Shown: piece after piece, positions 4,221-23,135 of the stretch
Position numbering within the stretch: position 1 is the first letter of the stretch
Layout: every line of letters begins with the position of its first letter
Source of the DNA: a virus
Strand: one strand, 5' to 3'
Length of the DNA: 33,459 bases
IMG/VR virus record: IMGVR_UViG_3300049255_000086
Coordinates: 1 to 33,459 of that record
The notes under the pieces: model-generated
The model's input: only the letters and a program-made list of their open reading frames with translations
What the model was told of the DNA's origin: nothing
Databases searched by the model: none
Translations under genes and position numbers: made by a program

Positions 4221-4254
4221 TTCGAGTGAGTGAATGCCAATTATCGTGCGCAAC

Positions 4255-4325
4255 GCGGGTGCCAGAGCGGCCTGGGACTCCCCTTCCAAGGGAGTTCGCC
4301 CTTTCGATGGGAGCCACCCGCTCCA
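4255..4325 (+). tRNA. divergent tRNA-Gly (anticodon TCC)
   Basis: 71 nt. The acceptor stem GCGGGTG / CACCCGC (4255-4261 / 4315-4321) pairs 7 of 7, followed by discriminator T and encoded CCA. The anticodon stem CTCCC / GGGAG is perfect around loop CTTCCAA, with anticodon TCC at 4285-4287 (Gly, GGA). The T-loop TTCGATG fits TTCRANN. The acceptor stem and CCA end match typical bacterial tRNA-Gly(UCC). Oddities: there is no T8, the D-arm is short (CCAG / CTGG with a 6-base loop), the variable region is 3 nt, and the T-stem has one mismatch and one G-T pair. It may be a functional divergent phage tRNA or a decaying one. It overlaps the extended N-terminus of the next reading frame. Confidence 0.7.
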
Positions 4326-4350
4326 ACTCTTCACCAAGCACATTCCGGCG

Positions 4351-5157: not shown

Positions 5158-5160
5158 CCT

Positions 5161-6198
5161 ATGTCCTCGTCACTCGACTTGATCGGAAAAGGTCTGCTGC
5201 CGTTTATGGGCGGTATGCGCCGGTTTATTCCCTTCCTACTGAACGCGGCTCAGGAAGTCGTTCCCATGCGCCAGTGGCCCGATTGGTCGTTTCACGACAT
5301 GACGTGCGGGAGCTGCGCCGGTTCCGCGACGTTTGCCTTCTACGGAATGAGCATCACGGCTAACGATCTGGCGCTCCGATCCATCATCCCGGCTAACGCG
5401 CTGTTCTACGGTCAGGCCAGCTCGGGCGCTCTGATAAGCAAGGTCATTTCCAACCCTGCAAAATTGCCTCAAGGATTAAAGCCTGCCGTCGAACTCGCGG
5501 AAGGAAAACTTCACCCGATTGCGTGCGATATTTTCGACCGTCTCTACTACGCTTCGTCTTCAGAGCCGCTGAACATGAAGCAAAAGCTGTTTTTCGAATA
5601 TCTCGCGATCAGGTGGGTGCTGCTTAACAAAAATTATATGTACTTTCTGAAGCTGCCAACTCTCGATCTGGACCAGCTCGCCATACAGTCCCCGACTTGG
5701 AAAAAGACGGTGGACATGCTTCGCGATCCGCTGCCCGCGCTTCTTAAGGTCAGGGAAGAAATTATGGACCTCTCGGTTGCGCTGCAAAGCGCCAACCCTC
5801 AGCGCCTGCCTTTCATCATCCAAGACGACTGCCGGGAAAGCATCAAGCATATCCTATGGGACCGCCCCAGCTTCGTGAACCTCAATCCCCCCACAGACGG
5901 CAACGCCAGGTTTATGCAGTCTAACCGGATGCTTGACGCGCTTCTGTATAACGAGCCTCAGCCTCAGAAGGACGGCATGATGCCGGGCGATCTTTGGCGC
6001 TCGCTGATTCTCGACACTTGCAAGCACATCCCGACCGGCCATTACGTCTTCAGTTTCGTCGGTGACGGCGCGGTAAGCTGGGAGGAAGGCTGCTCAGAAG
6101 TCTTTTCGAAAGTCGGCCCGATCATCAAAGAATGGTCGTTCCCTTGGCACGGCTCAGAAACCAGGAAAGCCGGTCTCGTTCTAATGAGGAAAGCCTAA
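5161..6198 (+). CDS. D12-class adenine methyltransferase-like protein
   Basis: 345 aa. The N-terminal layout is that of Dam/D12 N6-adenine methyltransferases: a GGMRRFIPFLL segment (compare GGK...LIP of motif X), then FHDMTCGSCAGSATFAF (compare EPFxGSGAxxF, the SAM-binding motif I), then TANDLALRS (compare NDIN). The expected catalytic DPPY appears as FVNLNPPTDG (about residues 237-246), NPPT instead of DPPY. It may therefore be an active divergent enzyme, or a target-binding relative that no longer methylates adenine. It lies 3 bp after the GNAT-like gene, and its stop overlaps the start of the DUF4338-like gene (TAATG), indicating tight co-expression. Confidence 0.6.
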   Translation: MSSSLDLIGKGLLPFMGGMRRFIPFLLNAAQEVVPMRQWPDWSFHDMTCGSCAGSATFAFYGMSITANDLALRSIIPANALFYGQASSGALISKVISNPAKLPQGLKPAVELAEGKLHPIACDIFDRLYYASSSEPLNMKQKLFFEYLAIRWVLLNKNYMYFLKLPTLDLDQLAIQSPTWKKTVDMLRDPLPALLKVREEIMDLSVALQSANPQRLPFIIQDDCRESIKHILWDRPSFVNLNPPTDGNARFMQSNRMLDALLYNEPQPQKDGMMPGDLWRSLILDTCKHIPTGHYVFSFVGDGAVSWEEGCSEVFSKVGPIIKEWSFPWHGSETRKAGLVLMRKA

Positions 6199-7130
6199 TG
6201 CCCAGGAAAAGAAAGAACGTCGGCGTCGTCAAAGGCCCTTACTATGGCAAGGTGCTCAAAAAGGCCGGTTCCAAGCACGACATTTCGTTTCTGCGAGACT
6301 GGATGGTAAACCTCACCTGCCTGGAGACTGCGGCGCTCGACCTCATTCGCCCGTTCGATCCGTTCCAGATCATACCGGTGCTCACGAAATGCACGACCCC
6401 TTATGAGAAGCGCATCTTCGATTATTTCCGCGTGACGCTTTCTTCGGAGGACCAAAACTACAGGCTCAGGAACACCGGGCGCGGCTCGGAATGGCTCGTG
6501 ACCGACGAGAGCAGCGGAGCTTTCCTCGGCCTATTCGTGCTGAATGATTGCGCTCTTCCGTGGGGACCGTTTACGGAATGGGCTGGTGGCCCGGTCGGCG
6601 TCAACGGTAAAGGCGAAGGGCACAACACTCACCATATGGTCGTGGCGCTCAGCCGCTGTATTCCGCTTTACGACTTCGGCAAGATCACAGGCGGCAAGAT
6701 GTTGGCCTTGGCCGCAACCTCGACAGAGGTGCTGAGGCTCCACGAAATCGAATACCACCTTTCCGTTTGCGCGATCATCATCAAAGCGCTTCACGGCAAG
6801 TCCAGCCAATACAATCGCCTGCACCCGCGCGGGATCGAATACCGGGGCGAAGTCAACAGCGGGGCAGGCTTTTACGTGATGCTCTGCCGAAAGAACGGGA
6901 AAGCCCACCTCCTAGAACAAGCAGACGATCCGGGGGCCAGGATCACGTATTCTCTCGGCGATCAGGTGCAATATTGGAAAGAGCGCTGGCTCCCGAACCG
7001 CGTTGACCTCTTGACGAACGGCCTTGTGGTGCCCGATCCGAAAGCCTATCGGCTCTCAGACATGATCGAAAAGAAAATCCAGCAGCGGCGCGAGCACGAT
7101 CTCGCCAAAGAACCTCTTGCCGCGCAGTGA
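6198..7130 (+). CDS. DUF4338/Mom-like GNAT-fold protein
   Basis: 310 aa. The ATG at 6198 overlaps the preceding stop (TAATG). Features recalling DUF4338 (Druantia DruA) and related phage proteins are the central SSGAFLGLFVLND, the long helix region GGKMLALAATSTEV, the signature HGKSSQYNRL and the closing YRGEVNSGAGFYVM. Phage Mu Mom, an adenine-modifying protein, has a related GNAT-like fold; DruA proteins occur in anti-phage defence. A role in modifying phage DNA with its neighbours is inference. The stop codon lies in a one-mismatch operator copy (7128-7141). Confidence 0.55.
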   Translation: MPRKRKNVGVVKGPYYGKVLKKAGSKHDISFLRDWMVNLTCLETAALDLIRPFDPFQIIPVLTKCTTPYEKRIFDYFRVTLSSEDQNYRLRNTGRGSEWLVTDESSGAFLGLFVLNDCALPWGPFTEWAGGPVGVNGKGEGHNTHHMVVALSRCIPLYDFGKITGGKMLALAATSTEVLRLHEIEYHLSVCAIIIKALHGKSSQYNRLHPRGIEYRGEVNSGAGFYVMLCRKNGKAHLLEQADDPGARITYSLGDQVQYWKERWLPNRVDLLTNGLVVPDPKAYRLSDMIEKKIQQRREHDLAKEPLAAQ

Positions 7131-8075: not shown

Positions 8076-8710
8076 TGACCAAAGTCAAGATCAAGAAAAA
8101 GCGCGTTACCACGACCGAGTTGCGCAGAAAAGTGCCAGCGGACGAGCGCCCTTTTCTACCGGCCTACGTGGATGTCCCCGAGCAGCCGATCTATGGCCCG
8201 GAAGGGGACGAAAAAGCCGAGCACGAAGAGCAGCAGGTCGCGCGCGTCGAACTCATGATGCTCAAGGGCATTCGTCAGAAGCGCACGCTCATGACCTTGC
8301 TCGAAATCCCCGACCATCGAAAGATGGACCGGTTTATCCGGCGCGTCTACGCGCGCTGGGAAATGACCGGCGCGACTCAGGAGCATATGCGCCACCGAGG
8401 CGAGGCCCTAAACCGGCTGGACCTCATTGAAAGCGAAACGTGGTCAAGGCTATCGAACCTGGACCCCAAGGCTGCTCCTCAGGTCAGTCTCAATTATCTC
8501 GCCGTCCTGCTTAAGATACAGGAGCAGCGGTCTCAGATGCTTGGGCTAACGCCGAAGGTCATTGCTCACATTGGCGTCGGCGACGACGCAAACGGTGACT
8601 TCGCGAGGCGCGTTGCTCGGCAGGAGTTCTTGGCGAAATTCGCCGCACGGATGAACGAACTTATTCAAGAGAGAACACGGTTCATCGAACATGAAAGCTC
8701 TCCCGAATAG
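8075..8710 (+). CDS. terS: probable terminase small subunit
   Basis: 211 aa. A basic N-terminus (MTKVKIKKKRVTTTELRRKV) and a helical middle with a possible helix-turn-helix (QKRTLMTLLEIPDHRKMDRFIRRVY) fit DNA recognition; the second half (LNYLAVLLKIQEQRSQMLGL) resembles the oligomerisation segment of many phage TerS and TerS-like proteins. The assignment rests mainly on position: its end overlaps the TerL start by 20 bp and its start overlaps the ParB-like gene. It would select phage DNA and load TerL for packaging. Confidence 0.7.
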   Translation: MTKVKIKKKRVTTTELRRKVPADERPFLPAYVDVPEQPIYGPEGDEKAEHEEQQVARVELMMLKGIRQKRTLMTLLEIPDHRKMDRFIRRVYARWEMTGATQEHMRHRGEALNRLDLIESETWSRLSNLDPKAAPQVSLNYLAVLLKIQEQRSQMLGLTPKVIAHIGVGDDANGDFARRVARQEFLAKFAARMNELIQERTRFIEHESSPE

Positions 8711-11561
8711 GCTGTCCCGAGAGGACATGGACGAGATCGCATCGATCCTGCTCACGGAGGTCGCAAACGACTTTCCCGAGAATATGGGGCTGCTCACCTC
8801 GTTCATTCAAAGAGCGGCTGAAGACCCGCGCGCCATAACCAACGTGCTCAAGTACACGCATGAGCCGGTCGGGCCGCGCGAGTTTGTCGAAAGCCCCACA
8901 TACATGAACAAACCCGGCGCGCTGTGGCCGCGCGTCATGGACGAGTTCTGCGAGCTTAATTCGGGTAAGTACGTCGAGAGCGTGCTTACGGGCGGGATAG
9001 GCTCGGGCAAGGCTTTAGACGTTGATACGCCAATACCAACACCGTCCGGTTGGACGCGCATGGGTGACTTGCAAGACGGCGATACGGTATTCGATGAACA
9101 CGGAGAAATGTGCTCTGTGTTGTCGGCCCACCCCGTTATGTTGAACCGGACTTGCTATGAAATTAGATTTAGCGACGGGTCGTCTATAGTTGCCGATGAA
9201 GACCATCTTTGGCGTGTTTGGTCAGCAAGTCAGCGTCATACTAAAACTCACCCCGAGGTGCTCAGTACAAAGCAGATAGCTTCAACTATTTACCGGGACT
9301 ACGGCATTGAGGTTGCGGGAAGTTTGAAGCTAGCGGATGTTCCCGGCCTCGGTATTGATCCGTATGTTCTTGGGGTCTGGCTCGGAGATGGAAGTTCAGA
9401 CGGAAACCGGATAGGGTCAGTAGATGAAGACGTAATTCTGGAATTGCGGCGACATTACTGGATAACGGAGCAACCGCGTCCTAATGCCGTTCCGGCCCGG
9501 ACGATACACGGTATTGGACCAGCTCTTAGAGCCTACAATCTATATGGCAATAAGCATATACCACCTGTTTTTTTGCGCGCCTCAGAAGATCAGCGTTTAG
9601 CGTTGCTGCAAGGTCTTATGGATAGCGACGGGACAATTGATAAAAGACAGGGTAATTGCGAGTTCACTCAGAAGAAAAAACGTCTTGCGTATGATGTTCT
9701 TGAGCTGGTCCGCTCTTTAGGTCTAAAGCCTACTATTCGTGAAAGGACGGCAATGCTGCGAGGCAAAGATTGCGGCCTAGTTTACACTGTCGCGTTCACC
9801 CCCCGAGACAAGAAAGTGTTTCGGCTACCAAGAAAGGCTAAGTATCTCAAGCCGTGTGTCAGCAAGGTTTCCCCTGCGGGCTGGCGATACATTAAGGAGG
9901 TTGTGCCGGTTCCGTCCCGCCCTGTACGCTGCATAACCGTTGACAGCGACTCTAAGCTTTATCTCGCAGGCGAAGCGATGGTGCCGACTCATAACACAAC
10001 CCTCGCACTCTACACGCAAGCCTATCAGCTTTACCTTCTTTCCTGCCTGCGCAACCCGCACGCCGAGTTCGATCTGGACCCTGCCTCCGAAATCCTCATC
10101 GTCTTTCAATCGATCTCGGAAAAACTCGCGAAGGGCGTCGATTACATGCGCTTCCGGGAAATGATCGAAAAGGCCCCTTACTTCAGGAGCCACTTCCCTT
10201 TTGAGACCAGCCTCGCAAGCGAGATGCGGTTCCCTAAACGCATCATCGTCAAACCCGTGGCGGGCACGGACACAGCCGCTATCGGTCAGAACGTCATCGG
10301 CGGCTTGATCGATGAAATTAACTTCATGGCCGTGGTCGAAAAGTCCAAAATGTCGAAAGACGGCGAGACCTACGATCAGGCCGTTCAAAACTACAATTCG
10401 ATTGCCCGACGCCGCGAGTCTCGCTTTATGCAGCTCGGCGCGCTGCCCGGTATGCTCTGCCTCGTTTCGTCCCGAAACTACCGGGGCGAATTTACGGACG
10501 TGAAGGAAGCGGAAGCCAGGACGAACCCCCGCATCTTTGTCTATGACAAGCGCATTTGGGAAATCCGGCCCGAGAAGTTCGGAGACGCGCGCTTCAAGGT
10601 CTTCGTCGGCGACGAGACGCGCAAGCCGTACATCCTGAAAGATGGGGCCGAAGTGCCCATCAAAGACGAAGCCCTGGTTGTCGAGGTTCCGGTCGAATAC
10701 CGGCATTCGTTCGAAAGCGACATGCTGGCCGCGCTCCGCGACATTGCCGGTGTGGCAACCAACGCCATCCACCCCTTCATAATGAACACCGAGGCCGTGG
10801 CGCGGTCGTTCGGCGTTGTGCAGTCCATCGCGTCCCGAGAAGACGCCGACTTTATCCACTCGAAGATCAAGCTTTTTCCGAAGCGGATCGAGAACCCTGC
10901 CGAGCCTCGCTTTGTCCACATTGACCTATCCTACCGGAAAGACAGCGCAGGCATCAGCATAGGGCACGTAAGCGGCTTCAAACACGTCCAGCGAAGCGAG
11001 CACACCGAGACCTTGCCCATCATCCGCTATGACCTCATTCTCGAAGTGAAAGTGCCACCGGGCGGCGAGATCGAGCTGGAGAACATCAGGAAGCTGCTCT
11101 ACACGCTCCGCGACACGCTCAAGATGCCGATCAAGTGGGTGAGCTTCGACGGCTTCCAATCGCGCGACAGTATGCAGATTCTCTTTCAGCGCGGCTTTAC
11201 CGTTCACTACGCTTCGGTGGACAAGACGACCGATGCCTACGACATTCTCAAGCAGGCGATCTACGATGGTCGCGTGCTGGCCCCCGAACATCCCAAGGCG
11301 CGTCGCGAGCTTATCTCTCTTGAGATCGACACAAAACGCGCAGTGATAGATCACCCGCCGCGCGGCTCTAAAGACCTCGCCGACAGTATGGCCGGGGTCG
11401 CTTACGGCCTGACAATCCTTCGCGAAATCTGGATACGCCATAGAATACCGATGAACGCGGTCCCGCTCAGCATCGCGCAGCGGGTGCCAGAAGTCGCGAC
11501 CAAGATCGTGAAGGGCGGCGCAGACATTAGCTACGAGGAGCTGACAGCCAGTGTCCATTAG
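8691..11561 (+). CDS. terL: terminase large subunit with in-frame intein
   Basis: 956 aa precursor, 628 aa after splicing. ATPase: Walker A TGGIGSGK (100-107) is split from its TT by the intein, and Walker B GGLIDEINF has D541-E542. Nuclease: RNase H-like acidic residues in HIDLSYRK (D745), SFDGF (D820) and KDLADSM (D895, D898). It cuts phage DNA and pumps it into the prohead. The intein interrupts the essential ATP-binding loop, so packaging depends on splicing. The start at 8691 overlaps TerS; an ATG at 8718 with GAGAGG upstream is an alternative. Confidence 0.95.
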   Translation: MKALPNRLSREDMDEIASILLTEVANDFPENMGLLTSFIQRAAEDPRAITNVLKYTHEPVGPREFVESPTYMNKPGALWPRVMDEFCELNSGKYVESVLTGGIGSGKALDVDTPIPTPSGWTRMGDLQDGDTVFDEHGEMCSVLSAHPVMLNRTCYEIRFSDGSSIVADEDHLWRVWSASQRHTKTHPEVLSTKQIASTIYRDYGIEVAGSLKLADVPGLGIDPYVLGVWLGDGSSDGNRIGSVDEDVILELRRHYWITEQPRPNAVPARTIHGIGPALRAYNLYGNKHIPPVFLRASEDQRLALLQGLMDSDGTIDKRQGNCEFTQKKKRLAYDVLELVRSLGLKPTIRERTAMLRGKDCGLVYTVAFTPRDKKVFRLPRKAKYLKPCVSKVSPAGWRYIKEVVPVPSRPVRCITVDSDSKLYLAGEAMVPTHNTTLALYTQAYQLYLLSCLRNPHAEFDLDPASEILIVFQSISEKLAKGVDYMRFREMIEKAPYFRSHFPFETSLASEMRFPKRIIVKPVAGTDTAAIGQNVIGGLIDEINFMAVVEKSKMSKDGETYDQAVQNYNSIARRRESRFMQLGALPGMLCLVSSRNYRGEFTDVKEAEARTNPRIFVYDKRIWEIRPEKFGDARFKVFVGDETRKPYILKDGAEVPIKDEALVVEVPVEYRHSFESDMLAALRDIAGVATNAIHPFIMNTEAVARSFGVVQSIASREDADFIHSKIKLFPKRIENPAEPRFVHIDLSYRKDSAGISIGHVSGFKHVQRSEHTETLPIIRYDLILEVKVPPGGEIELENIRKLLYTLRDTLKMPIKWVSFDGFQSRDSMQILFQRGFTVHYASVDKTTDAYDILKQAIYDGRVLAPEHPKARRELISLEIDTKRAVIDHPPRGSKDLADSMAGVAYGLTILREIWIRHRIPMNAVPLSIAQRVPEVATKIVKGGADISYEELTASVH
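9012..9995 (+). mobile_element. class 3 intein with LAGLIDADG endonuclease
   Basis: 328 aa, from Ala1 (ALDVDTPIPTPSGWTRMGDL) to the terminal His-Asn (MVPTHN), followed by Thr +1. Features of class 3 inteins are all visible: Ala at position 1 instead of Cys/Ser, and the WCT triad Trp67 (block B, two after His65), Cys307 (block F, RCITVDS) and Thr326 (block G). Homing endonuclease motifs LGVWLGDGS (D126) and LLQGLMDSDGTI (D206) are intact. Block B position 7 is Asp rather than Thr. The DNA is visibly more AT-rich than the flanking exteins, as expected for recent transfer. In class 3 inteins the block F cysteine makes the first nucleophilic attack. Confidence 0.93.
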
Positions 11562-12555: not shown

Positions 12556-12891
12556 ATGCGATCCACTATCGCGGGCCTGACGGTCCTGAGTTTTGTTATT
12601 CCCGGCCAGCCTGTTCTTGCCGAATGCGGCATCGCCTCGCACTACCACGAAGGCAAACGCACAGCCAACGGCGAGCGCTTCGAACCGGACGGCTTATCAG
12701 CCGCACACAAGTCTCTGCCTTTTGGGACCATCGTTCGCGTCAAGCATCAGCGAACTGGCCGGTCAATCGAAATTCGCATCAACGACCGAGGCCCCTTCGT
12801 TCCCGGCAGGATTATCGATCTCTCGCGTGGCGCGGCTCGGCTCATTGGCATTAACGGTCTTGCGCCTGTCTGCATCGACGTGGTGCGCTAG
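12556..12891 (+). CDS. RlpA-like double-psi beta-barrel protein, exported
   Basis: 111 aa. Residues 1-22 form a signal peptide (MRSTIAGLTVLSFVIPGQPV, cleavage probably after VLA), so the product acts in the periplasm. The rest is an RlpA-like domain: ASHYHEGKRTANGERF, AAHKSLPFGTIVRV, and the hallmark INDRGPFVPGRIIDLSRGAA. RlpA proteins are lytic transglycosylases for denuded glycan strands in some bacteria. A phage copy is a candidate cell-wall lytic enzyme for lysis or entry. The SPOR domain of full RlpA is absent. The ATG at 12556 follows AGAGGA. Expression is probably restricted by an operator at -35 and a ribosome-site hairpin. Confidence 0.85.
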   Translation: MRSTIAGLTVLSFVIPGQPVLAECGIASHYHEGKRTANGERFEPDGLSAAHKSLPFGTIVRVKHQRTGRSIEIRINDRGPFVPGRIIDLSRGAARLIGINGLAPVCIDVVR

Positions 12892-13524: not shown

Positions 13525-13538
13525 TGCAATTAGTTGCA
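13525..13538. promoter_or_regulatory. operator palindrome, 1 mismatch (tandem with 13548)
   Basis: TGCAATTAGTTGCA, centred 23 bp (about two helical turns) upstream of the exact copy at 13548-13561, the only closely spaced pair in the window. Spacing suits cooperative binding. Confidence 0.75.
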
Positions 13539-13546
13539 ATTCAGAC

Positions 13547-13575
13547 TTGCAATTAATTGCACTATGCCCTAGTTT
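13547..13575 (+). promoter_or_regulatory. promoter of the PPDK-like gene
   Basis: TTGCAA (13547-13552), 17 bp, TAGTTT (13570-13575). The -35 is part of the exact operator, and an imperfect dyad (13562-13571 / 13577-13585) surrounds the -10. Confidence 0.65.
13548..13561. promoter_or_regulatory. exact operator palindrome over -35
   Basis: TGCAATTAATTGCA upstream of the PPDK-like gene, paired with a second copy 23 bp upstream, making this the strongest-looking control region in the window. Confidence 0.85.
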
Positions 13576-13601: not shown

Positions 13602-15581
13602 ATGACAAATTCTCTCGTATACCGCTTCTCAAAAAACCACTGCGATTGGGCTGGCAGCGCAGCCGACGCCAAGAAAATTCTCGGCGGCAAAGGCGCGGGC
13701 CTGGTCAAGATGTCTCAGCATGAAATGCCGGTTCCTCCGGGCTTCACAATCCCGACGACCGCCTGCAATGAATACCATGCAAATACAGTGACTGGCGCGG
13801 CTCTCGCCAGCTCCTACCTCGCCAAGATCATGGCCGAAGTCGAGAAGGCCGACGAGTGGCTTCACGCCCATTTCTCCTATCGCCCGCTCGTATCTGTCCG
13901 TTCCGGCGCTCCAATCTCAATGCCGGGCATGATGGACACAATCCTAAATGTCGGTCTCACGTCCGAGACGCTTCCCGACTGGATTGAGCGTCTTGGCGAG
14001 CGCGCCGCCTTGGACTCTTATCGCCGTCTCATTCAAATGCTCGGCGCTACTGCCTACGGCGTTCCGATGGAAAAGTTCGAAAAGCAGCTCGATTGGATCA
14101 AGGCCAAGGCTGACGTCAAAAACGATGCTGACCTCGATGCTGTCGCACTTTCCATGCTGGTGGCGACCTACCTCGAAGTCTTCGCCATGCACGTAGGCCA
14201 CGCTTTCCCGCAAAGCCGCGAGGAGCAGCTTAAAGCCGCCATTCGTGCCGTCTTCAATTCCTGGCACAATGAACGCGCTGTGGCTTACCGCGACTTGAAT
14301 AAAATCCCCCATGACATGGGCACCGCAGTTACCGTGCAGGCCATGGTGTTCGGCAACACCGGCAACAACTCTGGCTCTGGCGTTCTCTTCACTCGCAACC
14401 CCCTTACTGGCGAGGCGAAGATCATGGGTGAGTATCTTGCCAACGCTCAGGGCGAGGATGTGGTGGCGGGCATTCGCACTCCGCTCAATCTCGATGAAAT
14501 CGACGCCCCTTGGCGCGGCGAATTGGACATTCTCTGCTTCCAACTCGAAGAGATGTACGCCGACATGGTGGACTGCGAGTTCACCGTTCAGGACGATTGC
14601 CTTTTCCTGCTTCAGTCCCGCGTGGGCAAGCGTTCCGCACGCGCTGCCTTCCGTATCGCGGTCGATCTCGTCAATGAGGGCATGATCGACCGTGGCACGG
14701 CGCGTCAGCGCCTTACAGTCGAGCAGTTCAAGGTGCTCCGTCGCCCAAGCATCGATCCTTCATTCAAGACCAAGCCGACGCATGTTGGTCTGCCGGCTTG
14801 CCCTGGCATCGTCTCGGGCGTGCCTGTTTACTCCGCCGAAGATGCAGTTAATTGCAAAGAGCCTTGTATCCTCGTCTCGCACGAGACGACGCCCGAAGAC
14901 ATTAAAGGCATGAACGCGGCCATTGGCATTCTCACGCAGACTGGCGGCGCGACTAGCCACGCAGCGGTCGTCGCTCGCGCTATGGACAAGACCTGCGTCA
15001 CCGGCTGTACCGATCTCAAGATCGAGGCGATGAAGGGCGTCGTTAAGCGCGTCACGATCAACGGCGACACAGGCGACATTTGGTTCGATGTCGAGGTTCC
15101 GGTCATCGACAGCTCCGACGCGCCCGAACTCAATACCGTTATCGATTGGTGCCTGGAAGTCATGGGCGTCTGCGAGGCCACCGTGACCGACATTGGCATG
15201 GACAAGCCGCACACCATTCAAGCCGCGCAATGGTGGGGCAATGAAGACGTTCTTCAGGCCGTACTCGACGGCATCGCAGAGCTGCCGCAGCGCCAGCACA
15301 TCACGCTTGACCTCACCCCTCCGTCAGCTTTCGTTTCGTCTGCTGACGCCGAGCTGACAGACTGTTTCGGCGTGATCTACGACGATAAGAAGTTTGCCTA
15401 CCGCGCTTCGCAAATTCTTGTCGAGCGCGCCAGCGAGCTTAAAGGCTTAGCGCTCAGAAATTTCTATGGCAATATCAAGCTTGCCGATCTTGGCTACACC
15501 GTTGCGGGTTTTGGTCTTCAATCCGTACCTACGGCAGTTCCTGCCGACTTTGCCGCCTATACAGTGCTGGCGCGGGCGTAG
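13602..15581 (+). CDS. PPDK-like protein lacking the PEP/pyruvate domain
   Basis: 659 aa; full pyruvate phosphate dikinases are about 870-900 aa. The ATP-grasp domain is well preserved: GGKGAGLVKM, VPPGFTIPTTAC, VSVRSGAPISMPGMMDT, SGVLFTRNPLTGE, LLQSRVGKRS. The swivelling phosphohistidine domain has GGATSHAAVVAR with the catalytic His453. Instead of the C-terminal TIM barrel that binds PEP/pyruvate there are about 150 unrelated residues. It could thus phosphorylate its histidine from ATP but needs another acceptor, which might be bound by the new C-terminus or a partner. The ATG at 13602 follows AAGGAGG. No frameshift is visible, so this looks like a designed architecture rather than a broken gene. 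Confidence 0.9.
   Translation: MTNSLVYRFSKNHCDWAGSAADAKKILGGKGAGLVKMSQHEMPVPPGFTIPTTACNEYHANTVTGAALASSYLAKIMAEVEKADEWLHAHFSYRPLVSVRSGAPISMPGMMDTILNVGLTSETLPDWIERLGERAALDSYRRLIQMLGATAYGVPMEKFEKQLDWIKAKADVKNDADLDAVALSMLVATYLEVFAMHVGHAFPQSREEQLKAAIRAVFNSWHNERAVAYRDLNKIPHDMGTAVTVQAMVFGNTGNNSGSGVLFTRNPLTGEAKIMGEYLANAQGEDVVAGIRTPLNLDEIDAPWRGELDILCFQLEEMYADMVDCEFTVQDDCLFLLQSRVGKRSARAAFRIAVDLVNEGMIDRGTARQRLTVEQFKVLRRPSIDPSFKTKPTHVGLPACPGIVSGVPVYSAEDAVNCKEPCILVSHETTPEDIKGMNAAIGILTQTGGATSHAAVVARAMDKTCVTGCTDLKIEAMKGVVKRVTINGDTGDIWFDVEVPVIDSSDAPELNTVIDWCLEVMGVCEATVTDIGMDKPHTIQAAQWWGNEDVLQAVLDGIAELPQRQHITLDLTPPSAFVSSADAELTDCFGVIYDDKKFAYRASQILVERASELKGLALRNFYGNIKLADLGYTVAGFGLQSVPTAVPADFAAYTVLARA
14843..14856. 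promoter_or_regulatory. operator palindrome, 1 mismatch, inside the PPDK-like gene
   Basis: TGCAGTTAATTGCA, read in a different codon phase from the other intragenic copies (GCA GTT AAT TGC; A-V-N-C). No promoter seen. Confidence 0.6.
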
Positions 15582-15598: not shown

Positions 15599-15901
15599 AT
15601 GGCTCTTGTTCTCACTCTTCGCGAAGGCGATGACTTCTACGTCGAGGACCAACGGTTTGTGGTTCTGGAAATCTACAGCCAGACGAGTTTTCGTTTGAAC
15701 AAGGAAGGCCATTGCACGTATGAAGTGACCGAGTACGAAGGCATTGAAGTAATTCCTGATGTTTTTGTTTCATCTGGCGACTATTATCAGAACGGGGTCG
15801 TTCGGGTTGTTATCGATGCGCCGCGATCTGTTCTTATACTGCGCGGGGCAAAGTATCGGGAGATGACTAACGATGGGCACGAGGGACTGCATTGTAAGTG
15901 A
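15599..15901 (+). CDS. CsrA-like protein with an internal insertion
   Basis: 100 aa. The beginning LVLTLREGDDFYVEDQRFVV parallels the CsrA start (LVLTR..GE...I.D.I.V), and VVRVVIDAPRSVLILRGAKYREM (about 67-89) parallels VRLGINAPKEVAVHREEIY. Between them lie about 35 extra residues (EGHCTYEVTEYEGIEVIPDV). CsrA dimers bind GGA motifs in mRNA leaders and block or stabilise translation, so a phage version could redirect host carbon metabolism or phage mRNAs. The match is by eye and moderate; another small beta-barrel is possible. The ATG follows AAAGGA. It is 17 bp after the PPDK-like gene, probably in the same operon. Confidence 0.55.
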   Translation: MALVLTLREGDDFYVEDQRFVVLEIYSQTSFRLNKEGHCTYEVTEYEGIEVIPDVFVSSGDYYQNGVVRVVIDAPRSVLILRGAKYREMTNDGHEGLHCK

Positions 15902-16088
15902 CGCCGCCAAGCTGATGGCGAGAAATGCCGGAATCTACGGCGATCCAGTTGCGCGCCTACGCAGGATGGCAAGACGCTCAGCTCCGGTCACGTCCGACTT
16001 CGGAAACCGGCGCTACCTCGATTGGTTCATGTTTATTAGCAATGGCGTGATCCGAAGCGTCATGCGTGTGAACCAGCTTCGCAATTAA
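15873..16088 (+). CDS. hypothetical basic protein (71 aa)
   Basis: ATG at 15873 overlapping the CsrA-like gene by 29 bp; an internal ATG at 15915 is an alternative start. Arginine-rich (ARLRRMARRSAPV), with a hydrophobic C-terminal half (YLDWFMFISNGVIRSVM). Unrecognised. Its TAA stop lies inside an operator copy (16080-16093), so the gene end and the control site overlap. Confidence 0.5.
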   Translation: MGTRDCIVSDAAKLMARNAGIYGDPVARLRRMARRSAPVTSDFGNRRYLDWFMFISNGVIRSVMRVNQLRN

Positions 16089-16115: not shown

Positions 16116-16916
16116 ATGGCTGCCAAGACCAAGACTGCAAAGGCTGACAGCGCACAAGCTGAGCAGCTTACAAAACCGAAAAGGAAGCCGAAAGCGCCCA
16201 AGCCCAAACCGGTGCTGGTCGCCGACGCTGCTTTCGAGCCTACCGCGCCCGTCGAGGTCGTAGCGCCAATCGAGCCTGTTGTGCCGGTCGAGGCTTCACC
16301 GGCAGAACTCGAAGTCACAGCATCAACCCCCAAGCCACGGAGGGCACCAGTGAAGAAGAAAAAGCACATCGAACCTAAACCCGATCTCGTCAGGGCCGAG
16401 CCGACGCCGCGCCGCATCTTTGCCCCGCGCGACAATAAGGGCAACGGCACCCTGGAGGTTCGTCTCGGCATCCTGTTCGGGTGTCACACGCTCAAGTTCA
16501 CGGGCGGTCCTTTCGACTCTTTCGACCCGAAGCCTGGATGGTTCGGCATCTGCGTTCGCGCCGAGCGTGTGAACAAAGATGCCGTCAGCTTCCACCTACC
16601 AATCATCGACTTCTCGGTTCCGAAAGACGACGAGCTTGTCCGGCAAGCGCTTATTGCGGCTTACAGGGCGGCTCTCAGCGGCAAGAGTGTTTACATTGGC
16701 TGCATGGGTGGTTACGGCAGAACTGGACTGTTCCTCGCCCTCCTCGCCAAAGTTGCAGGGTACAGCTCGCCAGTGAGCTACGTCCGCGCGAACTACGTCA
16801 GCCGCGCTGTCGAGACGGATGCGCAGCTCAAGTACGTTACGCATTTCAATGTGCTGCCGGTGCGCATTGCGCTGCGCCGCATGGGCTGGAAGGCTCGCCT
16901 CGGCCTCAAAATATAA
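16116..16916 (+). CDS. Cys-X5-Arg phosphatase-like protein with extended N-terminus
   Basis: 266 aa. Residues 1-110 are low-complexity, Lys-, Pro-, Ala- and Val-rich and probably disordered. The C-terminal domain carries YIGCMGGYGRTGLFLALLA, the P-loop of tyrosine/dual-specificity phosphatases (Cys196, Arg202), preceded by a strand and an acidic stretch (IDFSVPKDDEL) that may hold the general acid. Substrate unknown: phosphoprotein, RNA 5' ends or small molecules are possible. The ATG at 16116 follows AAAAGGA. Inside, CGGAGGG (16338-16344) precedes an in-frame GTG at 16350, so a 188-aa product containing only the catalytic domain could also be made. Paralogous to the protein at 18133. Confidence 0.8.
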   Translation: MAAKTKTAKADSAQAEQLTKPKRKPKAPKPKPVLVADAAFEPTAPVEVVAPIEPVVPVEASPAELEVTASTPKPRRAPVKKKKHIEPKPDLVRAEPTPRRIFAPRDNKGNGTLEVRLGILFGCHTLKFTGGPFDSFDPKPGWFGICVRAERVNKDAVSFHLPIIDFSVPKDDELVRQALIAAYRAALSGKSVYIGCMGGYGRTGLFLALLAKVAGYSSPVSYVRANYVSRAVETDAQLKYVTHFNVLPVRIALRRMGWKARLGLKI

Positions 16917-17003: not shown

Positions 17004-18119
17004 ATGGCACTGACTGATCCGAAATCAACTCTTGCCTATCATAACTCGCGCGTGTTCACCGCTCACCGAGACATGAGTGACGTTCCGGTCGAGAAGGTGT
17101 CTGCTGCTGTGGCTGCCTACATGGCGAAGGACAAGGCCCCCAACACCGGCCCCGAGAGCGAAGCGCTTTGGTTCTACGCGCTCAATCACGGTCTTGCCCT
17201 TATCCGTTCCAGGCGCGCTCCGCTTGAGCCGTTATCCGAGTGGGAGCAGGAATTTGTAGAGACGTATCATTCTATTCTCGGCCCCAAAGCCGTGCGCGCG
17301 TTCTACTATCTCCTGCTCATTTGCACTCGCGAGAGCCGTCACAACAAATCACTCCCGCACGATCTGGCAAAGATCGAGGCCAAGTTCGGCCCCGAGGTTG
17401 CGCAGTTCATCAAGTCTTCGGGCGGCGCCGAGTCCAAAATTCATAAAGCGCTTCTCGAAAAGCCACCAGTCACGACGATTGGCGATTTCGTCAAGTGCCT
17501 GCAATGGCAGTTCTATCATTCCAAGTGGAGTCCCGGCTACGGCGGCAAGGCTTGGGGCAAGGTCACAGACTGTCTCGTCAGCTTTGTCACGGGCGAATAT
17601 TCGGCTGAGATGATGATGGACACGGTATGGACGCTCAGCCACAACAACGGCCCGATCTTCAACAAGGGCCATCTCTACGGTATGTATAATTCTCACAAAT
17701 TGCTGCGCATCCTCGATATTCAGCGCTCCGGTCAAATCCCGCAGGCTATTGCTACAGACAGCGCCGTAGCCCACTACGCTCACCCTGATCTGGTTAAGAT
17801 CATGGCTGCGCTGGCAGAGCACTTCCCTGAGATCAACGGTGTAGTCGATTGGTTCAAAGTCGAGGCTCTTGGCGCGGTCGGCCATTACCCGCAAGAGAAG
17901 ATGAAGCAGGCAACGCTAACCCCCGAAGGGCTGGCTAAGCTCAAAGCAGAGCAGGAAGCTGCTGCTGAACTCGCTGCCGAGAAGGCAGCCAAAAAGGCTC
18001 AGGCTGAAAAGCTGGCCGCTGAAATGGCCGCAATCTCTAAAGCCGAGTTTGAGAAGAAGCATTTTCAGATCATGCCCGAACTTTGGGTAGAAAAGATCAT
18101 CCGCAAAGAAGCCGCTTAG
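17004..18119 (+). CDS. conserved-looking protein of unknown function (371 aa)
   Basis: Not recognised. Residues about 1-300 are helical with many aromatic and histidine residues (TRESRHNKSLPHDL, WTLSHNNGPIFNKGHLYG, AVAHYAHPDLVK), suggesting a folded enzyme-like or RNA-binding domain; about 300-345 is an Ala/Glu/Lys-rich coiled coil (EAAAELAAEKAAKKAQAEKL); a short tail follows. The ATG follows AAGGAGGG (16992-16999). It has its own promoter and lies between two Cys-X5-Arg phosphatase-like genes, a set that may work together. No membrane segment or signal peptide. Confidence 0.8.
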   Translation: MALTDPKSTLAYHNSRVFTAHRDMSDVPVEKVSAAVAAYMAKDKAPNTGPESEALWFYALNHGLALIRSRRAPLEPLSEWEQEFVETYHSILGPKAVRAFYYLLLICTRESRHNKSLPHDLAKIEAKFGPEVAQFIKSSGGAESKIHKALLEKPPVTTIGDFVKCLQWQFYHSKWSPGYGGKAWGKVTDCLVSFVTGEYSAEMMMDTVWTLSHNNGPIFNKGHLYGMYNSHKLLRILDIQRSGQIPQAIATDSAVAHYAHPDLVKIMAALAEHFPEINGVVDWFKVEALGAVGHYPQEKMKQATLTPEGLAKLKAEQEAAAELAAEKAAKKAQAEKLAAEMAAISKAEFEKKHFQIMPELWVEKIIRKEAA

Positions 18120-18132
18120 CCAGGAGGGCACC

Positions 18133-18834
18133 ATGAGCAGAAAGAGCATAGACGACTTCATACACGGCGACCGCGCGGGCATTCGCAGCTATCGCTCCGG
18201 TTTTGCTTCCGACCCCTACTCAAAGGAAACGACTGTGTACGTGCCGCGCTGCTACGAAGGCCACCATCCGCTCAAGCTTCCAGGCGGCGATCTCGTCATT
18301 TATGGAGGCAGTTGCTTGACCCCCAAGATCGAAGACGCCGACATATACATCGGCTTTGACAGCAGTATGAAGCTGACGGGCAAGCAGTACCCTTGGAACG
18401 GCTCTTCGGAAGTCTTGTTCCTGATCCAAGACATGGGCGCCCCGGTTCGTGTCGGCGACTTCAAGAAGCTGGTCGAGTGGACCCTCGACAAGCTGGTTGC
18501 GGGCCAGAAAATCCACGCGGGCTGCATCGGCGGTCACGGTCGCACCGGCACGTTCTTCGCAGCGCTCGTGGCGACACTTGGCGAGAAGAATGCGGTCGCC
18601 TACGTGCGCGAGCACTACTGCAATCGGGCTGTGGAGAGCCAAGAACAGATCAAGTTCCTTGTGGAGCATTTCGGGGTGGTTGACGCCACCGGCTCTAAAT
18701 CGTCTCAGCGCGCTCACGCTCCAGTGTTCGGCAAGGCGGTTGCCAAGCCCGTCGAGAAGTCTATTCCGCCGAAGCGCAGCGCTTTGGTCGAGACGTTCAC
18801 CCCCATGCCCCGAGTTTCAATATGGGACAAGTAG
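18133..18834 (+). CDS. Cys-X5-Arg phosphatase-like protein
   Basis: 233 aa. The P-loop HAGCIGGHGRTGTFFAAL has Cys131 and Arg137; the following helix and VAYVREHYCNRAVESQEQ match the layout of the protein at 16116, which has VSYVRANYVSRAVETDAQ at the same place, so the two are paralogs. It lacks the long disordered N-terminus but has a basic C-terminal tail. PTP/DSP-type phosphatases use a cysteinyl-phosphate intermediate. Substrate unknown. The ATG at 18133 follows AGGAGGG, 13 bp after the previous gene; same operon. Confidence 0.8.
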   Translation: MSRKSIDDFIHGDRAGIRSYRSGFASDPYSKETTVYVPRCYEGHHPLKLPGGDLVIYGGSCLTPKIEDADIYIGFDSSMKLTGKQYPWNGSSEVLFLIQDMGAPVRVGDFKKLVEWTLDKLVAGQKIHAGCIGGHGRTGTFFAALVATLGEKNAVAYVREHYCNRAVESQEQIKFLVEHFGVVDATGSKSSQRAHAPVFGKAVAKPVEKSIPPKRSALVETFTPMPRVSIWDK

Positions 18835-19296: not shown

Positions 19297-20097
19297 ATGG
19301 CTGTGAAATTCAAGACCGGTCTTAATGGTCTGGCCGCAATTCAGAAGATCGGCATCAAGCAGGCCAATTACGATTGGCTCTCTGTGAGCGAAGTTTCGAT
19401 CAAGCTCACGCCCGACAGGTTCATTTTCTTTCTGCCCACCCCCGATCCCGAAGCGCCGGTACAGACTTGGGAAGTCCCTGTGGCTCTCAATCAGCTTCAC
19501 GCTTTGGCCGCGAACACCCTTAGCGTTTCTCAGAAAGCTTCCCTCGGCGCAGCTATCGACAAGGTGATCGATGAGATCAAGAACTCGAAGGCCAACCTTG
19601 TACCGTTCAAGGACGCGGCTCCCGCCGAAACACATGAGGCTGTATTGAAGGCTCCTTACGTACCAGAGGCCAAGCTTCTTAAGACCGCCAAGCCGGGCGA
19701 GCAGGCGAAAGCCGATTGGTCTGAATTTGACCTCACTCAGCTCAAAACCGCGCCGACCGTCAAGCTTCGCAACGCTGACCGCCTGTACCAGCCGGTTGAC
19801 GGTTCCTCGCCTGGATCGCGCTACTATCTTGTCGCAGGCAACGCCGATCTTCGCGTTGCGGCCCGGTACAGCAGCGCCAGTCTTTCTGTCCGCATCGAAG
19901 GCCCCAAGTTCAGCACCTACGCTGGTGCCATTGCGAAGTGCGGCCTGACTGTCAAAGGCAGCAAAAACTATGCCTCAATTCACCTTTCCGTCTCTGACGA
20001 CTTGCTCGCAGCCAAGACGCTCGGCGCGATCCTTCTCGGTCTCGGCGTGAAGTTCGACAGCGCGTTCCCCGACATCCTAAAGATCAAGGAGGCTTGA
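19297..20097 (+). CDS. hypothetical protein (266 aa)
   Basis: Begins MAVKFKTGLNGLAAIQKIGI; ATG with AAGGAGG at 19285-19291. It appears to have two segments: residues 1-115 (mixed alpha/beta) and about 150-266, a beta-rich domain (LYQPVDGSSPGSRYYLVAG, LRVAARYSSASLSVRIEG) joined by a Lys/Ala/Pro linker. Not recognised. Strong promoter and ribosome site suggest a well-expressed product. Position next to DNA polymerase hints at DNA metabolism, but nothing in the sequence proves it. Confidence 0.75.
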   Translation: MAVKFKTGLNGLAAIQKIGIKQANYDWLSVSEVSIKLTPDRFIFFLPTPDPEAPVQTWEVPVALNQLHALAANTLSVSQKASLGAAIDKVIDEIKNSKANLVPFKDAAPAETHEAVLKAPYVPEAKLLKTAKPGEQAKADWSEFDLTQLKTAPTVKLRNADRLYQPVDGSSPGSRYYLVAGNADLRVAARYSSASLSVRIEGPKFSTYAGAIAKCGLTVKGSKNYASIHLSVSDDLLAAKTLGAILLGLGVKFDSAFPDILKIKEA

Positions 20098-20098
20098 T

Positions 20099-20323
20099 AT
20101 GGCAGCGGTCCCTCTTCTCACCGTCGAGGACTTCAAGAGCTTAGAGGTTGGCGATCAGGTCGAGACCTTTCCTCTCTGGCCGTCGATTACCGGCGACAAG
20201 ATCATCCTTCACACCGTACAGGCCAGCGCCGACCGGAAAGAATTTGCTGTCACCTACTGCGGCATCACAATCGGGCTTTGGGCCTGTGTATCGAACAACG
20301 GGCAACTCAAATGGCATCTATAA
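20099..20323 (+). CDS. hypothetical protein (74 aa)
   Basis: ATG one base after the previous stop, with AAGGAGG (20086-20092). Small beta-rich protein (MAAVPLLTVEDFKSLEVGDQ, IILHTVQASADRKEFAVTYC). Not recognised; soluble. It overlaps the next start by 13 bp, indicating translational coupling. Confidence 0.7.
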   Translation: MAAVPLLTVEDFKSLEVGDQVETFPLWPSITGDKIILHTVQASADRKEFAVTYCGITIGLWACVSNNGQLKWHL

Positions 20324-20733
20324 GCTCGCCTCTCATGTTCGCTCTCGCCGACGAGTTCGGCGTGTCCTTCCAGTACGACGGTGCTGTGAACAGGCTGAGC
20401 GCGGAAGCCTCGCGCCAAGTCATGCTTGGCGATCTCGTCGTCCCGTTTCACGTCCGGCTGGTAGGCTCGCAGATCATATCTCCGAAGCACGTTCTTCTTT
20501 TGTTTCGGGTCAAAGGCAATCTCGGCATCTTCATCAATGCCCGGATCATCAACGGTGTGCCGCATATCGACCTGTACTTCGTCAACCTTCCGAAGCTCAA
20601 AACAGCGCCTGAGAAGTTCTTCGACAAGCGCTACGCGACGGACGAACTCAGCATTGACGAGCTGGGCGAGGCGGTGGTGCGCGCTTTCTGCAAGACGGCT
20701 GTCGGTTGGTGCCCCATTGAAGCGAAGAAGTAG
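20311..20733 (+). CDS. hypothetical protein (140 aa)
   Basis: Begins MASISSPLMFALADEFGVSF. The start is uncertain: ATG at 20311 or 20335, both without a clear ribosome site, with coupling to the preceding gene likely. Beta-strand-rich middle (HVLLLFRVKGNLGIFINARI, GVPHIDLYFVNLP), acidic helical end. Not recognised. It lies 11 bp before DNA polymerase, probably the same transcript. Confidence 0.7.
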   Translation: MASISSPLMFALADEFGVSFQYDGAVNRLSAEASRQVMLGDLVVPFHVRLVGSQIISPKHVLLLFRVKGNLGIFINARIINGVPHIDLYFVNLPKLKTAPEKFFDKRYATDELSIDELGEAVVRAFCKTAVGWCPIEAKK

Positions 20734-20744
20734 CGGATTAGTTC

Positions 20745-23135
20745 ATGCTCACGATCTGGACTGCGGCCAACGCTGAGGTCGCTAAGAGAGTCTTCACTCC
20801 CGCCTTTCGTCCGTTTAGGCCAGAGATTCCCGAGCACAAGTTTGTCGATGTCATCGAAGAGGCACCCGCACCCGTTCCAGCACCGGGCGGCGTGATCCTC
20901 GTTTGCGGTAATAAGGCTCTCGATGTTTTGAGACGCGCTGGCACCGTCCATAAAGGGCGCACCCTCACCTCCATGCGGGAAAAGCCTATCAAGGCGGGGG
21001 CGGGCCACTACCTCGTTACATACGATCCAAGCCTCGTCGGCCAGGAACCCGACAAGCAAGAAACCATCAATTGGGACACGCAGCTTGCAGTCAGGATTAT
21101 CCGCACCGGCAGCACGACGCCGGTCCTCGGTGAATACAAGTGGGTAAACACCTACCAGCCCATGATCGAATGGATCGAGGCTCAGCACGCCAAGACGGGC
21201 AAGCCGGTAGACGTGGCCTGCGACATTGAGACGATGGGCTTTTACCCCTGGTATCCAGCCAAGGACATAATCTCCATCAGCTTTACGGCGAAGCCGGGGA
21301 CCGCCGAAGTGCTGTACCTTGGACCTCAGAAGCATCCGATCGATCTCGACCCCAAGGTTCCCCTCTACGACCATATCCGCTGGCTGCTGACCTCTCCAAA
21401 GGTCCGGCTGCGCTTGGCGAACGGCAAATACGATCTTGTATGGATCGCGGTGAAGTGGGGCATCGAATGCACGAACTTCAAATTCGACACGATGCTCGTC
21501 GGCTCGCTGCTCGATGAAAACCGCTCCAACTCTCTGAACACGCACGCCAAGCACCTTACCCCTATTGGCGGTTATGACGATTCCTTCAATGACAAGTACG
21601 ACAAGGGCCGCATGGAGGCGATCCCGGCTGGGAACGACCTTCTGACCTACGCTGGCGGAGATACGGACGCCGTACAGCGCGTAGCGGACGTTCTGAGGGA
21701 CGACCTCAAGACGGACGGGCAGCTTGCCAATTTCTACGTGAAAGTCCTTCACCCGGCAGCGCGCGCATTCGAGAAGATTGAACGGCGCGGCGTGCTGGCG
21801 GATGCGCACAAATTCCACCAGTTGCGTGACGATCTCCGCAAAGCGATTGACGAGGCCCATAAGAAGACCTTGGACGCGCTCCCTCACCGGATGCGCATCA
21901 AATACCGCGACAGGATTGACGAGCAGCTTGCGGAGGGTAAAAGCCCCATGCTGCCCAAAATCCTCAAGGAGTTCTTCTTTACCCCACACGGCCTCAATCT
22001 ACGGCCCAAGGAAGTGACCGCGAAGACCGGCGAGCCATCCCTTGCGAAGTCCCATCTCAGGCAGTTCGCGACGGTCCCGGCAGCCGCGCAAATGATCGAA
22101 GCTCTTACCGAAGCCGACAGCGCGATGAAGACGCTCTCGACTTTCGTGGACGGCTTCCTCAAGCACCTGCGTCCAGACGGGAAATTCCACCCCACCTACT
22201 TCCTCGCTCACGCTACGTTCGAGGGTCATGACGACGGCGACGGCGGCACAGTCACGGGGCGCACCTCAGCCAAAGACCCTCCCTTTCAGGTCATCCCCAA
22301 GAAGACCAAGTGGGCTAAGCGTATTCGCGAATGCTTTCCCGCGCCCGAGGGCAAGGTCACGCTGAGCGCCGATTACGTTCAAGGAGAGCTGAAAGTCGTC
22401 GCCTGCGTGGCGGGCGAAAAGAAAATGCTCCAAGCCTACAAGGACGGTCTGGACCTTCACGCGGTTACGGGGGCCAAGCTCGCTCAGGTTGACCTGTCAA
22501 CTTTCAATTCCTGGAAGTATAGCGATGACAAGGCGCTGGTGGATGCTTTTGAGAAGAACCGGACGCACGCCAAGCCCGCCAATTTCGGTCTGCTCTACGG
22601 AATGAGCGCAGAAGGTCTCATGGCCTACGCATGGGCGACTTACGGCCTGAAGCTCACTCTCGAAGAGGCGACCGTCATGCGCAATGCGTTCTTCGAGCTT
22701 TATCCCGGCTTGCTCGAATACCACGAGCGGCAGCGCAAGCTCGCACGGCAGTTCGGGGCGGTGCGCTCGCCCTTGGGCCGTATCCGTCACCTGCCTACGA
22801 TCTATTCCCGAGATCGCGAGATCAGGGCGAGGGCCGAGCGCCAAAGCATTAACTCACCGATCCAGTCCTGTCTGTCTGATATGATGCTGTGGGCCATTGC
22901 GGAAATCGAACGGGAGTACCCGAATGGCGAGATTGAAATCGTGGGTATGATCCACGACGCTTTGATCGCCTACATCCCGGACCAAGACACGATCCACTGG
23001 GCTTCACAAGTGACGCAGATTATGGCTACTCTGCCTTTCGATGCGCTAGGGTGGCAGCCTCAGTTGACGTTCACAGCAGACGCTGAGGTCGGCCCGAACC
23101 TAGCAGAACTCAAAAAGCTCAAGCTTACTGCGTGA
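20745..23135 (+). CDS. polA-like: family A DNA polymerase with 3'-5' exonuclease
   Basis: 796 aa. About 45-140 (GGVILVCGNKALDVL, YLVTYDPSLVGQ) recalls a uracil-DNA-glycosylase-like domain found at the N-terminus of some phage polymerases. The proofreading exonuclease follows: CDIETMG (D160, E162), LANGKYDLVW, YAGGDTDAV. The polymerase domain has motif A SADYVQGELKV (D543), motif B RTHAKPANFGLLYG and motif C MIHDALI (D738). Motif C has HDA instead of the usual HDE. There is no 5'-3' exonuclease domain, as in most phage Pol A enzymes. It replicates the phage genome. Sits just before the head genes. Confidence 0.95.
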   Translation: MLTIWTAANAEVAKRVFTPAFRPFRPEIPEHKFVDVIEEAPAPVPAPGGVILVCGNKALDVLRRAGTVHKGRTLTSMREKPIKAGAGHYLVTYDPSLVGQEPDKQETINWDTQLAVRIIRTGSTTPVLGEYKWVNTYQPMIEWIEAQHAKTGKPVDVACDIETMGFYPWYPAKDIISISFTAKPGTAEVLYLGPQKHPIDLDPKVPLYDHIRWLLTSPKVRLRLANGKYDLVWIAVKWGIECTNFKFDTMLVGSLLDENRSNSLNTHAKHLTPIGGYDDSFNDKYDKGRMEAIPAGNDLLTYAGGDTDAVQRVADVLRDDLKTDGQLANFYVKVLHPAARAFEKIERRGVLADAHKFHQLRDDLRKAIDEAHKKTLDALPHRMRIKYRDRIDEQLAEGKSPMLPKILKEFFFTPHGLNLRPKEVTAKTGEPSLAKSHLRQFATVPAAAQMIEALTEADSAMKTLSTFVDGFLKHLRPDGKFHPTYFLAHATFEGHDDGDGGTVTGRTSAKDPPFQVIPKKTKWAKRIRECFPAPEGKVTLSADYVQGELKVVACVAGEKKMLQAYKDGLDLHAVTGAKLAQVDLSTFNSWKYSDDKALVDAFEKNRTHAKPANFGLLYGMSAEGLMAYAWATYGLKLTLEEATVMRNAFFELYPGLLEYHERQRKLARQFGAVRSPLGRIRHLPTIYSRDREIRARAERQSINSPIQSCLSDMMLWAIAEIEREYPNGEIEIVGMIHDALIAYIPDQDTIHWASQVTQIMATLPFDALGWQPQLTFTADAEVGPNLAELKKLKLTA

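Follow-up and report, generated by a model that had tools for sequence, protein, structure and literature searches.

To which acceptor does a phage protein pass phosphate if it keeps the ATP-grasp and phosphohistidine domains of pyruvate phosphate dikinase (PPDK) but not its PEP/pyruvate domain? This question is raised by a gene in the window, by which we mean the entire 33,459-nucleotide stretch of viral DNA that was analyzed (IMG/VR record IMGVR_UViG_3300049255_000086). The gene, its domains, and its surroundings are listed in Table 1.

Table 1. Features of the dikinase locus in the window, with the evidence for each
Feature	Position	Strand	Evidence or remarks
Two TGCAATTAATTGCA-type palindromes, at 13526 and 13549, 23 bp apart	13526..13560		Upstream of dikinase gene
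PPDK-like histidine dikinase, 659 aa	13602..15581	+	ATG start; Pfam PPDK_N and PEP-utilizers, phrog_18609, PDB PPDKs
ATP-grasp domain, aa about 1-345	13602..14636	+	Invariant K30, R100, D324, E326, Q338, R340
Swivel (phosphohistidine) domain, aa about 395-497	14784..15092	+	H453 in TGGATSHAAVVAR
TGCAATTAATTGCA-type palindrome inside dikinase ORF (TGCAGTTAATTGCA), encoding DAVNC	14843..14856		
C-terminal alpha/beta region, aa about 528-659, replacing PEP/pyruvate TIM barrel	15183..15578	+	hhalign, AF2
Small CsrA-like protein	15599..15901	+	Retains AP..I.R motif, carries an insertion compared with CsrA; PF02599 E=7e-5, sub-threshold
g71, small conserved gene	15873..16088	+	Synteny
PTP/DSP-like phosphatase 1 (CMGGYGRTG)	16116..16916	+	PF22784 E=5e-6; N-terminal extension disordered-looking
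u330, 371-aa all-helical protein, phrog_20946	17004..18119	+	Invariant polar residues, dikinase linkage
PTP/DSP-like phosphatase 2 (CIGGHGRTG)	18133..18834	+	Motif
u267, conserved cassette protein	19297..20097	+	Synteny; labelled pyruvate decarboxylase in phage J26
u141, conserved cassette protein	20311..20733	+	Synteny
Family A DNA polymerase, bounding cassette	20745..23135	+	Synteny with annotated PolA

The ATG of the open reading frame is preceded by AAGGAGGGCAGCAA. A Pfam scan of the deduced protein detected PPDK_N (PF01326; E = 4e-44) and the PEP-utilizers swivel domain (PF00391; E = 2e-22), and it did not find PEP-utilizers_C (PF02896). The PPDK model TIGR01828 was matched with 544 bits over residues 5 to 526, which is well under its 843-bit cutoff because the protein has no counterpart to the last third of the model. 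Solved PPDKs were aligned by phmmer with E values down to 2e-122, and these alignments extended only to residue ~490-518 of 659. The match to phrog_18609 covered residues 1 to 508 (E = 6e-151); the phage dikinase family is thus previously catalogued in PHROGs, under the label "kinase".

To locate the end of the PPDK homology, hhalign was used: counted from where the last swivel strand starts, the similarity continues for ~44 residues and reaches into the linker helix, ending at about residue 528 (94%). In a trimmed comparison, the part of the protein that follows matched real PPDK barrels with a probability of 0.4%, like a reversed control. The unrelated part therefore comprises ~130-160 residues, which agrees with the ~150 that the earlier note had assigned to the replacement of the TIM barrel. 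AlphaFold2 modeling of 58 phage C-termini, in line with the AlphaFold or HHpred analysis proposed there, gave a confident small alpha/beta domain (pLDDT of 90.9, pTM of 0.82), for which Foldseek retrieved no PDB match at E ≤ 0.001. A degenerate TIM barrel was also considered, as "DKPHTIQAAQWWG" resembles by eye the "DTPEDA..A..FG" of the PPDK barrel, and was rejected on the hhalign and Foldseek results. Across the phage family, these C-termini are poorly conserved, with a mean column identity of 22%. A PPDK split over two genes, which the earlier note had named as a finding that would refute its proposal, was ruled out in the relatives because PF02896 was present in none of the 28 related phage records examined (80-112 kb each) but in all 14 control genomes; the window, as a 33-kb fragment, covers only part of its own genome.

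Phage relatives of the dikinase were found by tblastn in 57 phage records, and scans of IMG/VR retrieved many more. From the same searches, a comparison set was assembled that contained 66 distinct phage proteins of ~630-740 amino acids and 10 full-length PPDKs of 875-908 amino acids; one locus further to the 66 (L085) encodes a dikinase of 562 amino acids. The length distribution was bimodal, separating the phage dikinases from the full-length PPDKs. Identity to the window dikinase ranged from 29 to 63% in one subset of the phage homologues. In a joint alignment, K30, R100, D324, E326, Q338, R340, and H453 (window numbering) were identical in 66/66 phage homologues, so that the ATP-grasp and phosphohistidine domains are intact as the earlier note had read them, and the loss of ATP-binding residues that it had named as a refutation of its proposal did not occur in any of these proteins. 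We take the six ATP-grasp positions among these to be equivalent to the ATP/Pi residues in C. symbiosum PPDK numbering. The PEP/pyruvate barrel was retained in none of the 66. In a FastTree phylogeny of the N-terminal region, full-length bacterial-type PPDKs clustered apart from all phage proteins, with a modest support of 0.66 on the phage side. Several PPDK matches (tblastn hits H4, H7-H10, H14, H16, and H17) come from records under the names Listeria, Enterococcus, or "Bacteriophage sp."; these records resemble bacterial contigs with an ordinary PPDK, because they have no u330 match.

The dikinase sits in a rigid gene cassette in a group of large phages. Rhodobacter phage RcZahn, Rhizobium phage RHph_TM16, Stenotrophomonas phage DLP3, and several Vibrio phages have a common gene order: terminase, one or more small genes, dikinase, CsrA-like, small gene, PTP, u330, PTP, u267, u141, PolA, and portal; some members are absent in some phages. 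The CsrA-like protein is over the Pfam cutoff in one relative and below it in the window. When the distinct phage loci with 5 kb or more of downstream sequence were compared (n = 55), u330 and a phosphatase were present in all, two phosphatases in 52, and the CsrA-like gene in 51, whereas none of six full-length PPDK loci had u330, a phosphatase, or the CsrA-like gene. In the reverse test, which started from u330, a dikinase was present in 68/68 loci with enough upstream sequence, loci in bacterial assemblies included; the eight loci without a dikinase were truncated, and a few of the contigs had also been recovered when the dikinase was the query. Among phage records in GenBank, u330 was found in those of Vibrio (33), Stenotrophomonas (4), Rhizobium (2), and Rhodobacter (1) phages, and these hosts match those of the dikinase if tblastn records that are unannotated or assigned to Listeria, Enterococcus, or Bacillus are set aside. 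Terminase and polymerase flank the cassette in a conserved core of the genome, and synteny alone could consequently reflect slow rearrangement. Judged from these gene neighborhoods, the linkage is best taken as co-selection within one phage group and not as proof of a shared reaction.

Both phosphatases contain the signature C-x-G-G-x-G-R-T-G together with a conserved general-acid Asp, so that the catalytic Cys, Arg, and Asp are kept. The two phosphatase-like genes to which the earlier note had drawn attention are hence real PTP/DSP-like genes, located downstream of the dikinase and belonging to a fixed cassette with the CsrA-like gene and u330. Several of their relatives carry the label "thymidylate synthase" (phrog_17568, DLP3_141, FDJ07_gp078, and FDJ07_gp080). 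The DLP5 genes scored as PTP/DSP rather than thymidylate synthase, and PF00303 was absent from the 28 related records; the label was therefore rejected, and all four are likely PTP-type phosphatases that were misannotated. The pyruvate decarboxylase label of u267 in phage J26 (WYC17970) has no Pfam support and is likewise a likely misannotation. The u330 family consists of proteins of ~340 amino acids for which an all-helical model was obtained at high confidence (pLDDT of 95.4). About 20 positions are invariant across 52 members, many of them polar, including R109, E110, R112, H113, D206, H213, N214, N220, K221, D238, and Q240. No convincing Pfam match, no PDB sequence match, and no PDB fold match were obtained for u330, and its matches among viral structures (BFVD) were unnamed viral proteins. 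Based on the model, u330 is possibly a new enzyme fold. A role of the cassette in defence or counter-defence was rejected, as PADLOC returned no match for six of its proteins.

Some further features of this region were observed. A small DPBB/RlpA-like (lytic transglycosylase-like) protein is encoded at 12556-12891, just upstream of the dikinase, and only one other searched locus (L007) has it. Read by eye, the terminase large subunit (8691-11561) appears to have an intein inserted at Walker A (GSGK / TTLALY). A block at 4234-7130 encodes three proteins, of which one is of the LPG_synthase_C type (GNAT-like), one resembles a methylase (with an NPP motif seen by eye), and one is weakly DruA-like, and relatives carry sugar and glycosyltransferase genes in its place; it is a candidate DNA- or surface-modification block.

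The tandem operators reported upstream of the dikinase are real, but the description of this segment as the strongest control region is overstated, because the palindrome occurs 20 times in the window. These sites (positions 309 to 33249; variants TGCARTYRAYTGCA) have at most two mismatches to the 12-bp core, and 1.3 were expected. A sigma-70-like promoter was not found at the tandem pair. In close relatives, the dikinase gene is preceded at ~80 bp by a single palindrome, and u330 is preceded by another at 80-97 bp. The palindrome was detected in 13 of 17 related phages, in 1-47 copies (most with 11-47), versus none for the reversed pattern, and a literature search for the exact TGCAATTAATTGCA string produced no match. 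In the window, DLP5, RcZahn, VH2_2019, and other relatives, sites are both intergenic and within genes. In four genomes, their spacing was more regular than random (CV of 0.45-0.51, p of 1e-5 to 9e-4, based in one genome on the sites listed), while in the window alone it did not depart significantly from random (p = 0.19). This distribution points to a phage-wide site, such as one for a repressor or partition, and nothing in it singles out the dikinase for special control. The site inside the dikinase gene overlaps the codons for A-[VI]-[ND]-C, a peptide present in 29/66 homologues as counted by hand. The codons used there are strongly biased, with AAT or GAT and TGC in 29/29 and GCA in 28/29, and homologues without that Cys mostly have unrelated, GC-rich codons. 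The DNA site therefore appears to dictate the local sequence of the dikinase protein.

At the level of sequence, three points are established, namely, an intact ATP/His site, the absence of the barrel in the gene and its relatives, and a strict association of the dikinase with u330 and with phosphatases. We consider it probable that the gene encodes a PPDK-derived histidine dikinase that autophosphorylates on histidine with ATP and serves a non-pyruvate acceptor linked to the cassette. ATP would be bound by the ATP-grasp domain and a phosphoryl group would pass to His453 of the swivel domain; AMP, if the stoichiometry of the family applies, would be the other nucleotide product. The swivel domain would carry the phosphate to a site other than the PEP/pyruvate site, because that domain is missing, and the new C-terminal domain would position a small molecule or a partner protein. 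The phosphorylated product would most likely be used by u330 and the step might be reversed by the two PTP-type phosphatases, while the CsrA-like protein possibly controls expression; u330 and the phosphatases are proposed as partners because of their strict linkage. There is precedent for the individual steps: the barrel-less VadK (Rv1127c) autophosphorylates His422 with ATP/Mg (PMC13400623), and an ATP-grasp/swivel pair serves a non-pyruvate acceptor in HpeHI (PMC12167813) and in RPH (PMC4844700). We slightly favor a small molecule or nucleotide over a protein as acceptor. The low identity of the C-termini counts against this reading, as it is unusual for a substrate-binding domain common to a whole family. 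Of the phosphoryl-transfer pathway that the earlier note had considered, the module with its phosphatases is supported, and a route from substrate to product is hypothetical.

The alternative that survives best is a VadK-like regulator, in which phospho-His453 would alter the binding to host or phage proteins, the phosphatases would act in a signalling loop, and a dedicated small-molecule acceptor would not be needed. VadK is the closest functionally studied barrel-less PPDK derivative and has been interpreted as such a regulator (PMC13400623); a small and variable C-terminus is what would be expected of a protein-interaction region, and the cassette contains a CsrA-like regulator. However, VadK has no added C-terminal domain of such size, and u330 looks like an enzyme. 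A chemical step appears likelier than pure signalling because the invariant residues of u330 are polar. We therefore regard a purely regulatory function as rather unlikely.

A second alternative relates the locus to DNA precursors or base modification: the dikinase would phosphorylate a nucleotide or base, u330 would use the activated intermediate, the phosphatases would clean up, and the variable upstream genes would decorate the product. These upstream genes include glycosyltransferases, aminotransferases, and GNAT-like and methylase-like genes, and PolA adjoins the cassette. Furthermore, DLP5 DNA was cut by only 4 of 36 restriction enzymes (PMC5834331) and DLP3 DNA by none of 15 (PMC7326821). 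Among the 28 related records, the classical thymidylate synthase/hydroxymethylase (PF00303) was present in none, QueC in one, and a ThyX-like gene in 11, and modification via thymidylate synthase or 7-deazaguanine was therefore rejected as a general route. However, restriction data were found for DLP3 and DLP5 only, and each of these two phages has a divergent gene of the ThyX type; the annotation of DLP5 also lists a nucleotide kinase of its own. Modified DNA could be explained by either gene, so that the link between restriction resistance and the cassette is circumstantial, and no direct link ties the dikinase to nucleotides. We thus consider this alternative doubtful. The same low standing applies to its most far-reaching form, in which the dikinase, phosphatases, and u330 would constitute an undescribed phage pathway to a phosphorylated nucleotide or DNA-base intermediate, with new DNA-modification chemistry and u330 as an enzyme of new fold.

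A true PPDK, encoded as an auxiliary metabolic gene to enhance the glycolysis or gluconeogenesis of the host, has been published for several Vibrio phages. It can draw on the strong N-terminal similarity to PPDK and on work on phage J26, in which the last 168 residues of ORF98 were called a four-stranded TIM barrel and PEP was docked there (PMC12038007). Real PPDKs, however, have ~350 residues in this region, and PEP-utilizers_C is absent from J26 ORF98 as well as from the window protein and the 28 related phage records. In our Pfam analysis, PPDK_N and the swivel domain were the only domains of ORF98; solved PPDKs match it up to residue ~513-540 of 691 and no further, and the gene is located in the same cassette. 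The reading as a true PPDK is largely refuted by these comparisons and must be viewed as highly improbable; the published glycolytic function is not borne out by the sequences, which indicate that the gene cannot encode a glycolytic enzyme as drawn, and the metabolic claims built on it consequently need revision. That the PPDK fold is kept as a mere scaffold or idle ATPase, which the lost substrate domain and the variability of the remaining C-terminus might suggest, is hardly credible, since the invariance of all seven catalytic positions compared in 66 diverged proteins argues for purifying selection on catalysis.

A strictly conserved, putative phosphoryl-transfer cassette is thus now defined; it is shared by phages that infect Vibrio, Stenotrophomonas, Rhizobium, and Rhodobacter and includes a partner protein, u330, of apparently new fold. 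It poses a question that is testable in isolated phages, namely, what is gained by charging a histidine with ATP yet never serving pyruvate.

Comparison with known systems places the phage dikinase among, but apart from, the characterized members of its superfamily. With PPDK (TIGR01828; structures from C. symbiosum, maize, and Flaveria) it has in common the ATP-grasp and swivel domains, the catalytic His, and the same residues, and it differs in the missing PEP/pyruvate TIM barrel, the new C-terminus, and the fixed phage cassette. VadK of M. tuberculosis is likewise a barrel-less PPDK derivative with ATP-grasp and swivel domains, whereas the phage dikinase continues at its C-terminus for a further ~130 residues, for which a fold was predicted, and has the cassette in addition. 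Its score with NF004531 (PRK05878), a model that presumably covers VadK, was 433.5 bits and thus under the cutoff of 456. Rifampin phosphotransferase and the small-molecule dikinases HpeHI/CreHI/PpsAB likewise combine an ATP-grasp domain and a swivel His with a non-pyruvate acceptor, but this group has a different domain order or split subunits and is closer to PEP synthase. The large acceptor domain of the RIF-binding type is absent in the phage dikinase, in which the ATP-grasp and swivel regions alone match (NF041857, 50.9 bits of 999). The phage "PPDKs" of Vibrio phages J26, SIO-2, Virtus, and LV6, Stenotrophomonas phages DLP3 and DLP5, Rhodobacter phage RcZahn, and Rhizobium phage RHph_TM16, in contrast, share the family, the cassette, and the missing barrel with the protein of the window; the family is known already and has been misread as true PPDK in repeated publications.
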